Assembly: GCF_014359565.1 (NCBI RefSeq) | Contig: NZ_JACIZD010000002.1 | Span: 124,001-188,000 of the forward strand | Length of the DNA: 64,000 nt | Origin: Immundisolibacter sp. | Lineage (GTDB): Bacteria > Pseudomonadota > Gammaproteobacteria > Immundisolibacterales > Immundisolibacteraceae | Direction of reading: 5' to 3' | Shown: one piece after another, positions 42,808 through 47,426 of the stretch | Numbering within the stretch: the stretch's first letter is position 1 | Layout: the number at the start of each line of letters is the position of its first letter | Made by a program: the position numbers and the translations under genes | Notes under the pieces: generated by a model | Database searches by the model: none | What the model was told of the DNA's origin: nothing | Seen by the model: the letters and a program-made list of their open reading frames with translations, nothing else

Positions 42808-43803
42808 ATGTATCTTAATGACGTCCCACGAACCGATCCGGCGACGCTGCTGCAGCTCGCCCGGGATGTGCTGGAAACCGAAGCCGAAGCAATACGCCAA
42901 CTGGCGCCGCGGCTGGGCGAGACTTTCGTGCGGGCCTGCCGCCTGCTGCTGGCCTGCCGCGGGCGGGTGGTGGTGCTGGGCATGGGCAAATCGGGCCACA
43001 TCGGCGGCAAGATCGCGGCCACGCTGGCCAGCACCGGCACGCCGGCCTTTTTCGTGCATCCGGGCGAAGCCGGTCATGGCGACCTTGGCATGATCACGCC
43101 GCAGGACGTAGTGCTGGCCCTGTCCAATTCCGGCGAGACCTCGGAAATCCTGCTCATCCTGCCGATGATCCGGCGGCTGGGCGTGGGCCTGATCGCCATT
43201 ACCGGCGATCCTTCCTCGACGCTGGCCCGCGAGTCGGACGTGAATCTTGACGCCAGCGTGGAACGCGAAGCCTGCCCGCTGGGCCTGGCGCCGACCGCGA
43301 GCACCACCGCCACGCTGGCCCTGGGCGATGCGCTGGCGGTGGCGCTGCTGCACACACGCGGCTTCTCGCGCGATGACTTCTCGCGCAGCCACCCGGGCGG
43401 CAAGCTCGGCCGGCGCCTGCTGTTGCATGTGGGCGATGTGATGGTGAAGGGCGAGCGCATGCCGGTAGTCGGCCGCGACGCCAGCCTGACCGACGCCCTG
43501 CTCGAGATCACCCGCAAGGGCCTGGGCATGACAGCCGTCGTGGACGCCGACGGTCGCGCGGTGGGGGTATTCACCGACGGCGATCTGCGGCGGGTGCTGG
43601 AAAAGGTCGACAACGTGCGGACCGTGGGCATCGCCGAGGTGATGACCTGCGGCGGCGTGCGCATCGGTCCGGACCTGCTGGCGGCCGAAGCCGCGCAGCT
43701 GATGGAACGACGGCGCATCAATGCGCTGCTAGTAGAAGACAAAGACGGGCGCCTGATCGGCGCCCTGAACATGCATACGTTGCTGGATGCTGGCGTGATC
43801 TGA
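42808..43803 (+). CDS. kdsD: Arabinose-5-phosphate isomerase
   Basis: Interconverts ribulose 5-phosphate and arabinose 5-phosphate, the first committed step toward KDO of LPS. The 331 residues have an N-terminal sugar-isomerase (SIS) domain with GMGKSGHIGGKIAATLASTG and LSNSGETSEILLILPMIRR, the SHPGGKLGRRLL segment, and two C-terminal CBS domains from about residue 205. GGAAG precedes the ATG by 9 nt. It heads the kdsD-kdsC-lptA-lptB-rpoN-rapZ block and is divergent from the exporter cluster. Confidence 0.95.
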   Translation: MYLNDVPRTDPATLLQLARDVLETEAEAIRQLAPRLGETFVRACRLLLACRGRVVVLGMGKSGHIGGKIAATLASTGTPAFFVHPGEAGHGDLGMITPQDVVLALSNSGETSEILLILPMIRRLGVGLIAITGDPSSTLARESDVNLDASVEREACPLGLAPTASTTATLALGDALAVALLHTRGFSRDDFSRSHPGGKLGRRLLLHVGDVMVKGERMPVVGRDASLTDALLEITRKGLGMTAVVDADGRAVGVFTDGDLRRVLEKVDNVRTVGIAEVMTCGGVRIGPDLLAAEAAQLMERRRINALLVEDKDGRLIGALNMHTLLDAGVI

Positions 43804-43929: not shown

Positions 43930-44472
43930 ATGACATCAGGGGATAACCATCACGCCGGGCCGGATTCCGAATTGCGGGCGCTGGCCGCCCGTATCGAGCT
44001 GGTGGTGTTCGACGTGGACGGCGTGCTGACCGACGGCCGCCTGTACCTGGGCGATAACGGTACCGAGTTCAAGGCCTTTCACGTGCGCGACGGATATGGC
44101 TTCAAGCTGCTGCGCGAGGCCGGGGTCAAGCTGGCGGCGCTCAGCGGGCGGCGCTCGTCGGCCGTCACCCGGCGCCTGGACGAGCTGCAGGTCGACCTGT
44201 ATCGCCAGGGTTGCCAGCACAAGGACCGGGATTTTCTGGACCTGTTGCAGCACTTGGGCATCGACCGCCGGGCCACGGCCTACCTGGGGGACGATGTGAT
44301 CGATCTGCCAGCCATGCACCTGGCGGCCTTGCCGGTCGCGGTGGCGGACGCCCATCCGCGGGTACGCGAGATGGCGCGCTGGATCACAACGCTCGGTGGC
44401 GGCCGCGGTGCGGCGCGCGAACTGTGCGACCTGATCGTCGATGCCCGTGAGGCTGCCCCGGCGCCGGAATGA
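43930..44472 (+). CDS. kdsC: KDO-8-phosphate phosphatase
   Basis: HAD-superfamily phosphatase releasing free KDO for LPS assembly. The 180 residues begin the catalytic motif at FDVDGVLTDGRLYLGDNGTE (nucleophile Asp28, acid/base Asp30). Motif II is in LAALSGRRSSAV and motif III/IV in TAYLGDDVIDLPAM. It is a capless C0-type protein of the normal size. Only a weak ribosome site is seen. It is followed by a 181-nt gap to lptA where lptC would be expected. Confidence 0.95.
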   Translation: MTSGDNHHAGPDSELRALAARIELVVFDVDGVLTDGRLYLGDNGTEFKAFHVRDGYGFKLLREAGVKLAALSGRRSSAVTRRLDELQVDLYRQGCQHKDRDFLDLLQHLGIDRRATAYLGDDVIDLPAMHLAALPVAVADAHPRVREMARWITTLGGGRGAARELCDLIVDAREAAPAPE

Positions 44473-44621
44473 GAAAGCCAGGATGGATTCATTGCGCGCT
44501 GGCACCGGCGCGCAGCGCGCGGTTAATCGACACGACCGCCAAATCTCGGCTCGACCGGCCGCGCGCCTGCCAGCGATGGGCGGACTGCTAGACTTGCCGG
44601 CGGCGGCGCACCCGTCCGCTG

Positions 44622-44627
44622 CATAAT
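44622..44627 (+). promoter_or_regulatory. Possible -10 box upstream of lptA
   Basis: CATAAT (5/6) 26 nt before the lptA ATG. The nearest -35-like TTGCCG (44594-44599) is 22 nt away, which is too far, so the assignment is weak. A sigma-E-type or other promoter is known before lptA in E. coli. Confidence 0.25.
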
Positions 44628-44653
44628 TTTTGCCCGTGGTTCAACTGATACCC

Positions 44654-45162
44654 ATGCGTTTTTTATCCACCCGCTCGCTGTGTGGCCTTGCCTTGCTGTG
44701 CCTTGCCGGTTCCGTCATGGCCCTGGATTCGGACCGCCAGCAGCCGATCTACATAGATGCCGATCGGGTCGAGCTGGACGAGGCCAAGGGCCTGAACACC
44801 TACACCGGCGCCGTGGTGGTGGTGCAGGGCACGATGCAGATCAACTCCGACACGCTGGTCATCCACACCGAAAACCGCAAACCGACCCGCTATGTCGCCA
44901 ACGGCAAACCGGCCCGCTACAAACAGCAGCCCAAACCCAACGAAGGCGACGTGGTGGCCACCAGCCGGCAAATGGAATACGTGATCGGCGAGAAGAAGCT
45001 CTATTTGCGCGGAGATGCCCACATCACCCGCCAGGGCGACGTGTTTCAGGGCGATCAACTGGTGTACGACACCGTGCGCGACCTGGTCACCGGCAGCGGC
45101 GGCGAGGGCGGGCGCATCCGCATGATCATTCAACCCCAGCGCGGCGCCGAGAAAGCGGCGCC

Positions 45163-45166
<4 letters not shown>
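44654..45166 (+). CDS. lptA: LPS export periplasmic bridge protein LptA
   Basis: Periplasmic component of the Lpt machine that forms the bridge carrying LPS from LptC to LptD. About 170 residues: signal peptide [20 protein letters not shown] ending at VMA, then the OstA-like beta-jellyroll with [39 protein letters not shown] and [21 protein letters not shown] chose the ATG at 44654 for its clean signal peptide; TTG 44630 and GTG 44636 are in frame but add residues before it. It overlaps lptB by 4 nt. lptC is absent just upstream. Confidence 0.93.
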
Positions 45167-45888
<722 letters not shown>

Positions 45889-45956: not shown

Positions 45957-47426
45957 ATGAAGCAAGGTCTCGAACTTGGCGTCTCGCAACATCTTGCACT
46001 GACGCCGCAGCTGCAGCAGGCCATACGCCTGTTGCAGTTGTCGACGCTCGACCTGCAGATCGAAATTCGCGAAGCGCTGGAAGCCAACCCGCTGCTGGAA
46101 GCAGACGAGGAAACAGCCGACCTCGCCGAAGAACCGCAGCTGCCGGTCGTGCCGGAGCAACCCGAGCGCGCCCTGGAGTTCGACGGGGACAACGAAATCC
46201 CGCAGGAGCTGGCAGTCGACGGCAACTGGGAAGACACCTTCATCGACCTGGGGGCCGGCAGCGGCGCCAGCAGCCGCGACGAGGATGACGGCGGCGACTT
46301 CACTGCCGTGTCCAGCAAAGCCGAGACGCTGTACGACCATCTGCTGTGGCAGCTTGACCTGACGCCGTTCAGCCCCGACGACCGGGCAATCGCCGAACTC
46401 ATCCTGGACGCCATCCGACCTGACGGCTACCTCGGCCAAACGATCGCCGAGCTGTGCCAGACCGCCAGCGAGGGACGCGCCGAACCGGTGGACGAAACCG
46501 AGCTGCTGTCGGTGCTGCGGCGCATCCAACACTTCGACCCAGCCGGCGTGGGCGCACGCGATCTGGCCGAGTGCCTGCGCCTGCAGGTCGAACAGTTCGA
46601 GGGCCTGGATGCGCCGCTGCGCGAGGCCGCGCTGTCGGTGCTGGAGTACATCGCGCTGCTGGGCGAGCACGACTACAAGGCCCTGCAACGCGCCACCGGC
46701 CTGCCGGCCGAGACCGTCGACCAGGCCGTACATCTGATCCAGGCCCTGAACCCGCGCCCCGGCACCAGCCTTGACGCAGACGAGCCCGAGTACATCGTCC
46801 CGGACGTACTGGTGCGAAAGATCAACGGTGCGTGGCAGGTCGAGCTGAACCCCGCCATCGCGCCCAGACTGCGCATCAACCAGACCTACGCCGGCATGAT
46901 CCGCCGCCGCGACAGCGGCGCCGACAACGAATACCTGAAAAATCGCCTGCAGGAAGCCCGCTGGTTCATCAACAGCCTCAAAAGCCGCAACGACACCCTG
47001 CTGCGCGTGGCGCGGGCCATCGTGCAGCGCCAGGTCGGGTTCTTCGAGGACGGCCCGCACGCCATGGTGCCGCTGGTGCTGCAGGACATCGCCGACGAAC
47101 TGGGCCTGCACCAGTCGACCATCTCGCGCGCCACCAACCGCAAGTACATGCACACCCCGCGCGCCATCTACGAGCTGAAGTTCTTCTTCTCCAGTCACGT
47201 CTCGACCAGCGACGGCGGCTCGGCCTCGGCCACCGCCATCCGTGCCCGCATCCGCGACCTGATCGCTGCGGAAACGCCCGGCAGCCCGCTCAGCGACAAC
47301 GACCTGGCCGAACAGCTTCAGCAGATGGGCATCAACGTGGCCCGCCGCACGGTGGCCAAATACCGCGAGGGCATGGGCATCGCCTCCACCACCGAGCGGC
47401 GCAAGGCGGCCCGCCGCAAGAGCTGA
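45957..47426 (+). CDS. rpoN: RNA polymerase sigma-54 factor
   Basis: Alternative sigma factor for -24/-12 promoters that need AAA+ enhancer-binding activators. The 489 residues have the Gln/Leu-rich region I (LALTPQLQQAIRLLQLSTLD) and LEANPLLEADEE, an acidic region II, the core-binding region, and the C-terminal DNA-binding part with the RpoN box ARRTVAKYRE. The usual downstream hpf and ptsN are not present; rapZ follows 11 nt later. Confidence 0.96.
   Translation: MKQGLELGVSQHLALTPQLQQAIRLLQLSTLDLQIEIREALEANPLLEADEETADLAEEPQLPVVPEQPERALEFDGDNEIPQELAVDGNWEDTFIDLGAGSGASSRDEDDGGDFTAVSSKAETLYDHLLWQLDLTPFSPDDRAIAELILDAIRPDGYLGQTIAELCQTASEGRAEPVDETELLSVLRRIQHFDPAGVGARDLAECLRLQVEQFEGLDAPLREAALSVLEYIALLGEHDYKALQRATGLPAETVDQAVHLIQALNPRPGTSLDADEPEYIVPDVLVRKINGAWQVELNPAIAPRLRINQTYAGMIRRRDSGADNEYLKNRLQEARWFINSLKSRNDTLLRVARAIVQRQVGFFEDGPHAMVPLVLQDIADELGLHQSTISRATNRKYMHTPRAIYELKFFFSSHVSTSDGGSASATAIRARIRDLIAAETPGSPLSDNDLAEQLQQMGINVARRTVAKYREGMGIASTTERRKAARRKS

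Follow-up and report, generated by a model that had tools for sequence, protein, structure and literature searches.

In the hydrocarbon-degrading soil bacteria of the genus Immundisolibacter, LptC is undetected, and the sole lptFG pair is not the ancestral copy of the family but a member of a separate clade, LptF2G2, whose genes lie in a sphingolipid cluster. Canonically, LPS passes from the jellyroll of LptF to LptC and from there to LptA; LptC ranks among the seven essential Lpt proteins, and its role at the junction with LptF is still debated. The reading that we favour, and consider probable, is that Immundisolibacter lost lptC together with the ancestral lptFG, and that a six-protein machine of LptB2, LptF2, LptG2, LptA, LptD and LptE exports LPS, with LptF2 handing it directly to LptA. 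One open-access literature collection yielded no earlier report of a natural LptC loss, which makes for a weak claim of novelty.

The window, i.e. the whole stretch of 64,000 nucleotides that was analysed, shares its gene order and five genes with the canonical kdsD-kdsC-lptC-lptA-lptB-rpoN arrangement of E. coli K-12, but is without lptC. It belongs to genome G000 (27 contigs, 100% complete), which was compared with two Immundisolibacter congeners, G001 (a 95% complete MAG) and G002 (a single contig of 3.24 Mb), with the sister genus (G003, G004 and G005) and with an order mate (G007). The kdsC-lptA stretch of G001 occurs without a single difference in NZ_JAQVGQ010000075.1, a MAG of Immundisolibacter. 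The features of the segment are:

42808..43803, plus strand: kdsD, KDO biosynthesis, with SIS and CBS domains (Pfam SIS 2e-31, CBS 1.2e-18; the G002 copy is 94% identical)
43930..44472, plus strand: kdsC, KDO-8-phosphate phosphatase (NCBIfam TIGR01670, 147.6 bits, above cut-off; 93% and 79% identity to the congener copies)
44473..44653, no strand: non-coding junction of 181 nt at the usual lptC site (congener equivalents 177 nt in G002 and 205 nt in G001, both without lptC)
44654..45166, plus strand: lptA, periplasmic bridge protein (TIGR03002, 134.9 bits against a cut-off of 71.7; Pfam LptD_N 4.2e-25)
45163..45888, plus strand: lptB, LPS exporter ATPase (TIGR04406, 378 bits against a cut-off of 240)
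45957..47426, plus strand: rpoN (sigma-54), closing the usual gene order (Pfam Sigma54_DBD 1.1e-62, CBD, AID)

From the kdsC stop (44472) to the lptA ATG (44654) the spacing is exactly 181 nt; the lptC gene of E. coli, by comparison, measures 576 bp. None of the ORFs in the gap (44473-44653) is LptC-like. The longest (44469-44591, 40 aa), whose start overlaps the kdsC stop in an ATGA, was rejected as the remnant of an lptC pseudogene, being hydrophilic and missing from G001. The first-pass annotation was thus right that lptC is missing between kdsC and lptA, and this holds genus-wide, in all three genomes. A terminator-like hairpin with a T run lies directly 5' of lptA (44603-44622), and a CTGCTARACTTGCCGGC stretch is common to the window and G001; either could be regulatory. 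No sigma-70-like promoter was found in the kdsC-lptA junction, and a promoter boosting lptA expression, sought at the same place, was not found either. The N-terminus of LptA has a signal-peptide-like stretch, as judged by eye.

Outside the locus, the Pfam LptC profile (PF06835) had no match in the whole of G000 at E<=0.001, and at E<=10 it matched LptA alone (E 0.26). A profile of 23 LptC proteins from related genomes and the sister genus did no better than E 3.7 in G000 and had no match in either congener; the same profile scores sister-genus LptC at E 8e-64, and lptC is intact between kdsC and lptA in G003-G005 and G007. The profile search of the genome and its relatives, which had been proposed along with the original observation, thus confirms that, as far as profiles detect, lptC is gone from the whole genus and retained in its sister. 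It is unlikely that LptC has merely moved and diverged past profile detection, leaving the machine seven-part. Profiles do miss divergent LptC: ORFs of 170-207 aa at the lptC site of four other gammaproteobacterial genomes (G013, G053, G066 and G104) reach only E 0.0045-0.59 with a 31-sequence HMM. However, such divergent copies occupy the expected locus, where none of the three Immundisolibacter genomes has an LptC-like ORF; sister-genus LptC is easily found; and the lptF2G2 cluster described below showed no gene recognisable as LptC-like. Of the options raised by the first-pass annotation, a gene that has moved is therefore unsupported, and for a divergent protein replacing LptC the gap offers no candidate.

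Of the canonical seven-protein machine, Immundisolibacter has LptA, LptB, LptD and LptE, and lacks LptC and the ancestral LptF and LptG. Each of the three genomes holds two PF03739 matches, which make up one LptF-LptG pair, one LptA and one LptD-sized protein over the PF03968 cut-off (LptD was identified by this domain within a long open frame), and one LptE. LpxC is present in all 18 genomes searched, G000-G002 included; LpxK was found in G000 and G002, and was not found in searches of G001 (the 95% complete MAG) and of G347, a genome with LptF2 only. Since LptA, LptD, LptE, LpxC, LpxK, kdsD and kdsC are retained, lipid A-KDO is very probably made and the outer-membrane translocon very probably in place. 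LPS loss as the cause of the lptC loss was considered, and the presence of LpxC and LpxK speaks against it.

The large change sits in LptFG. In an LptF tree built with the R212 columns taken out, Immundisolibacter stands apart from its own family, inside a clade of 15 LptF (SH-aLRT 96). The LptG tree recovers the same clade with 14 rows (SH-aLRT 99), the fifteenth, a partial row from G373, being placed elsewhere; in a joint LptF+LptG tree, 13 pairs form one clade with a support of 100/99. Forcing Immundisolibacter together with G003-G007 was rejected by the AU test (p-AU 3.8e-8). The sole lptFG pair of Immundisolibacter is thus a member of this clade and not the family's ancestral copy. The name LptF2G2 was borrowed from PMC11324152, the link being cluster content rather than an alignment to Caulobacter CC_1156/CC_1155. 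In G000 the pair is found as follows:

L243 6587-8721 (G000:C1), minus strand: Immundisolibacter lptF2G2 pair

It is surrounded by a complete-looking ceramide/phosphosphingolipid cluster (L243 1-15001 and L295 1-14001; G000:C1 241000-268000), which predicts sphingolipids in Immundisolibacter. A serine palmitoyltransferase is found near the pair (NF047599 equivalog, 604 bits against a cut-off of 500), and the neighbours include a GNAT protein (CerS candidate), a fatty acyl-AMP ligase (NF006624; AasR candidate), an NAD-epimerase (CerR candidate) and an acyl carrier protein, the CerR, AasR and CerS assignments being made from fold family and position. Further neighbours are a CDP-alcohol transferase, a diacylglycerol-kinase-type protein, a metallophosphatase and two nucleotidyltransferases. 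At least two homologues of cluster genes lie nearby in 13 of the 15 clade members, and one in G350, where the contig is short; at the three canonical lptFG loci checked there are none. Genome G229 carries three lptFG pairs, of which the third (L256, G229:C2:1300000-1314000) groups with LptF2G2 and has no cluster-gene homologues beside it.

In gene content the cluster resembles that of Caulobacter (CC_1168-CC_1152), where, in the portion of PMC11324152 drawn on here, lptF2G2 lie among Spt, AcpR, CerR, AasR and a GNAT-type CerS candidate, and LptC2, LptF2 and LptG2 are the proposed transport set for phosphosphingolipid; the same portion describes A. vinelandii and P. luteola as without an ortholog of CC_1168 (LptC2). 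In Caulobacter, this is a second set, for sphingolipid, with an LptC2 of its own, whereas in Immundisolibacter LptF2G2 is the sole set and LpxC and LpxK are retained. Since the Caulobacter cluster as described there has its own LptC2, LptF2 is not LptC-free everywhere.

These parallels could be taken to mean that LptF2G2 exports sphingolipid only, and that LPS takes another route, stays in the inner membrane or is not fully made. The setting of the pair inside the ceramide cluster, the role proposed for its Caulobacter namesakes and the missing LpxK of G001 and G347 all point this way. Against it stand the LpxC of every genome searched, the LpxK of G000 and G002, kdsC and kdsD beside lptA-lptB, the retained LptD and LptE, and the fact that there is no other LptFG; we regard a pump restricted to sphingolipid as improbable.

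Direct transfer from LptF to LptA has a precedent in the laboratory. All 11 independent suppressors of an lptC deletion in E. coli alter R212 of LptF, to G, S or C, according to the part of PMC4986956 consulted; with LptF R212G the bridge consists of six proteins and LptA cross-links at Y230, while R223 and Y230, near R212, are named as the site for LPS where the jellyrolls of LptF and LptC meet, according to the corresponding part of PMC9972910. Position 212 was read from an alignment of 125 LptF, taken from 116 genomes of gammaproteobacteria with E. coli added, in which G210 and the aromatic residue 213 served as anchors, and was also compared with the 6mjp LptF; it is Tyr in the three Immundisolibacter genomes and Arg in the rest of the family. 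Arg is found here in 0 of 15 LptF2 (six A, three Y, two S, two L, one G and one M) and in 82 of 99 canonical rows. Among the 86 canonical rows of LptC-containing genomes, E. coli counted, 70 have Arg and 16 another residue, so that R212 is usual and not obligatory with LptC; as a strict LptC marker it was therefore discarded. These and the following position counts cover the genomes other than 12 with a divergent LptF (G013, G038, G053, G054, G066, G104, G125, G169, G210, G226, G261 and G335) and other than G020, in whose canonical LptF an inspection by eye showed Arg at this position.

The 15 LptF2 differ from the 99 canonical LptF most clearly at Y230, F222 and R212 (ranks 1-3 of 349), Y230 being changed to L in 13 of 15 and F222 to D in 12 of 15; G215, V204 and R223 rank 6, 8 and 16. 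Residues 200-235 hold 6 of the top 16 positions against 1.7 expected (hypergeometric p 0.003, for a stretch picked after the list had been seen). The altered interface of LptF2 (equivalents of R212, G215, F222, R223 and Y230) may best be read as a natural counterpart of the R212G/S/C suppressors. As far as the cited parts of PMC4986956 and PMC9972910 describe the E. coli bridge, both cases share the absence of LptC, a residue other than Arg at 212 and the presence of LptA, LptB, LptD, LptE, LptF and LptG, and the lab-selected G and S occur in other LptF2. The Immundisolibacter case differs in being natural and genus-wide, with Tyr at 212, and in that the whole LptFG pair comes from another clade, with F222, R223 and Y230 changed too. 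In addition, the E. coli suppressors, as reported in those parts, needed extra LptA; the promoter search gave no sign of LptA overexpression in Immundisolibacter.

The loss recurs in other gammaproteobacteria. Of 370 genomes drawn from across the class, 349 had LptC over the Pfam cut-off, and 29 genomes besides Immundisolibacter were treated as weak or LptC-negative, six rows with E 2e-7 to 9e-5 being counted among these. Four of the junctions read are without intact lptC: (i) G081 (one contig; L126) and (ii) G347 (L127), each with a kdsC-lptA spacing of 19 nt; (iii) G129 (L125), where a 57-codon remnant of the LptC C-terminus stands between kdsC and lptA; and (iv) G261, a divergent 1.3-Mb genome with kdsD directly before lptA and neither kdsC nor lptC between. 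Four more of the 29 (G013, G053, G066 and G104) have the divergent ORF mentioned above at the lptC site. Twelve genomes (G047, G062, G088, G091, G130, G217, G276, G283, G303, G350, G355 and G373) had an lptA locus that was cut or could not be located, and the outcomes given here cover the genomes other than G038, G125, G169, G210, G226, G335 and the 0.3-0.4 Mb genomes G025, G161 and G255. G347 and G129 have LptF2G2 alone, with no canonical pair. G081, which carries both pairs and is without LptC, shows R212Q in its canonical LptF, whereas its congener G194 has Arg at 212 and an intact LptC. The weak LptC match of G081 (8.9e-4) was dismissed, as its LptD matches PF06835 at 8.6e-4; a suspected decay of lptC in G194 was dismissed as well, the flagged TAA being the gene's own terminal stop.

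In the count over 116 genomes, with 12 loci unread and the 12 divergent genomes set aside, intact LptC is missing in all five LptF2-only genomes (three lineages). Where the locus was readable, LptC is present in six and missing in one of the seven genomes with both pairs, and present in 80 of 80 canonical-only genomes. LptF2 occurs in 4 of 5 LptC-less lineages against 6 of 86 LptC-containing genomes (Fisher 0.0004), and LptF2 alone in 3 of 5 against 0 of 86 (Fisher 0.00008); as the LptC-containing genomes were chosen as such and not at random, these figures are informative in one direction, namely that LptC-less lineages are rich in LptF2. A residue other than Arg at 212 is common to the whole LptF2 clade, so that Immundisolibacter, G347 and G129 do not represent independent changes at this position.

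Taken as a sequence of events, the favoured reading could run in the following manner: The lineage would gain LptF2G2 together with the sphingolipid cluster. LptF2G2 would then carry LPS as well, and LptF2, its interface changed, would dock on LptA and pass LPS to it directly; LptC would no longer be needed, as we propose for this handover. Loss of lptC and, later, of canonical lptFG may then have followed, a path that would apply to Immundisolibacter, G347 and G129. In G081, an alternative path may have been taken, in which lptC was lost with a bypass change in the canonical LptF.

The replacement of LptC by LptA, another early suggestion, comes nearest to this proposal, in so far as LptA would receive LPS directly. 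That LptA or LptB, not LptF2, changed to replace LptC, for instance through a membrane-held LptA, is nonetheless very improbable: LptA is the stand-in for LptC in E. coli, and a changed start or an anchor could tether it, yet LptA (170 aa, TIGR03002) is ordinary here, LptB (241 aa) scores above the LptB cut-off, and the large change lies in LptFG. The initial interpretation was thus borne out in part, the decisive replacement of LptFG lying outside the window. A deletion introduced in assembly, or a recent loss at the level of the strain, would have only the draft state of G000 on its 27 contigs in its favour and has a negligible chance of being correct, since the same junction occurs in both congeners and thus in three species-level genomes, one of them a single contig.

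One observation against direct LPS transfer by LptF2 is that six LptC-containing genomes hold LptF2G2 beside the canonical pair, which indicates that LptF2G2 normally may serve sphingolipid only. A more far-reaching idea, which we put forward tentatively and think somewhat less likely than not to hold in full, is that LPS and phosphosphingolipid leave through one and the same LptF2G2 pump, via a shared LptA-LptD bridge without LptC, and that the takeover of LPS export by this sphingolipid exporter in several gammaproteobacterial lineages freed lptC and canonical lptFG for loss. The unsolved route of sphingolipids to the outer membrane would thereby be tied to the LPS bridge, and a ceramide-linked pump clade appears able to replace the LPS pump. 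If the six-protein reading is true, the LptC bypass is evolutionarily stable, in a genus whose LptF is altered at and around the bypass site found in the laboratory, and natural LptB2F2G2 complexes are available for study. For annotators, a missing lptC should not be taken as an error.

Several genomes of the draw show further peculiarities. G030 (99% complete) has LptC over the cut-off and no LptF/LptG match. At L018, L019 and L028, LptC is part of an open frame 364-387 codons long, which may represent a KdsC-LptC fusion or simply a frame that stays open far upstream. At L128 (G066), where LptC and LptF are divergent, several OstA/LptA-like stretches precede lptB, perhaps as duplicated bridge domains.
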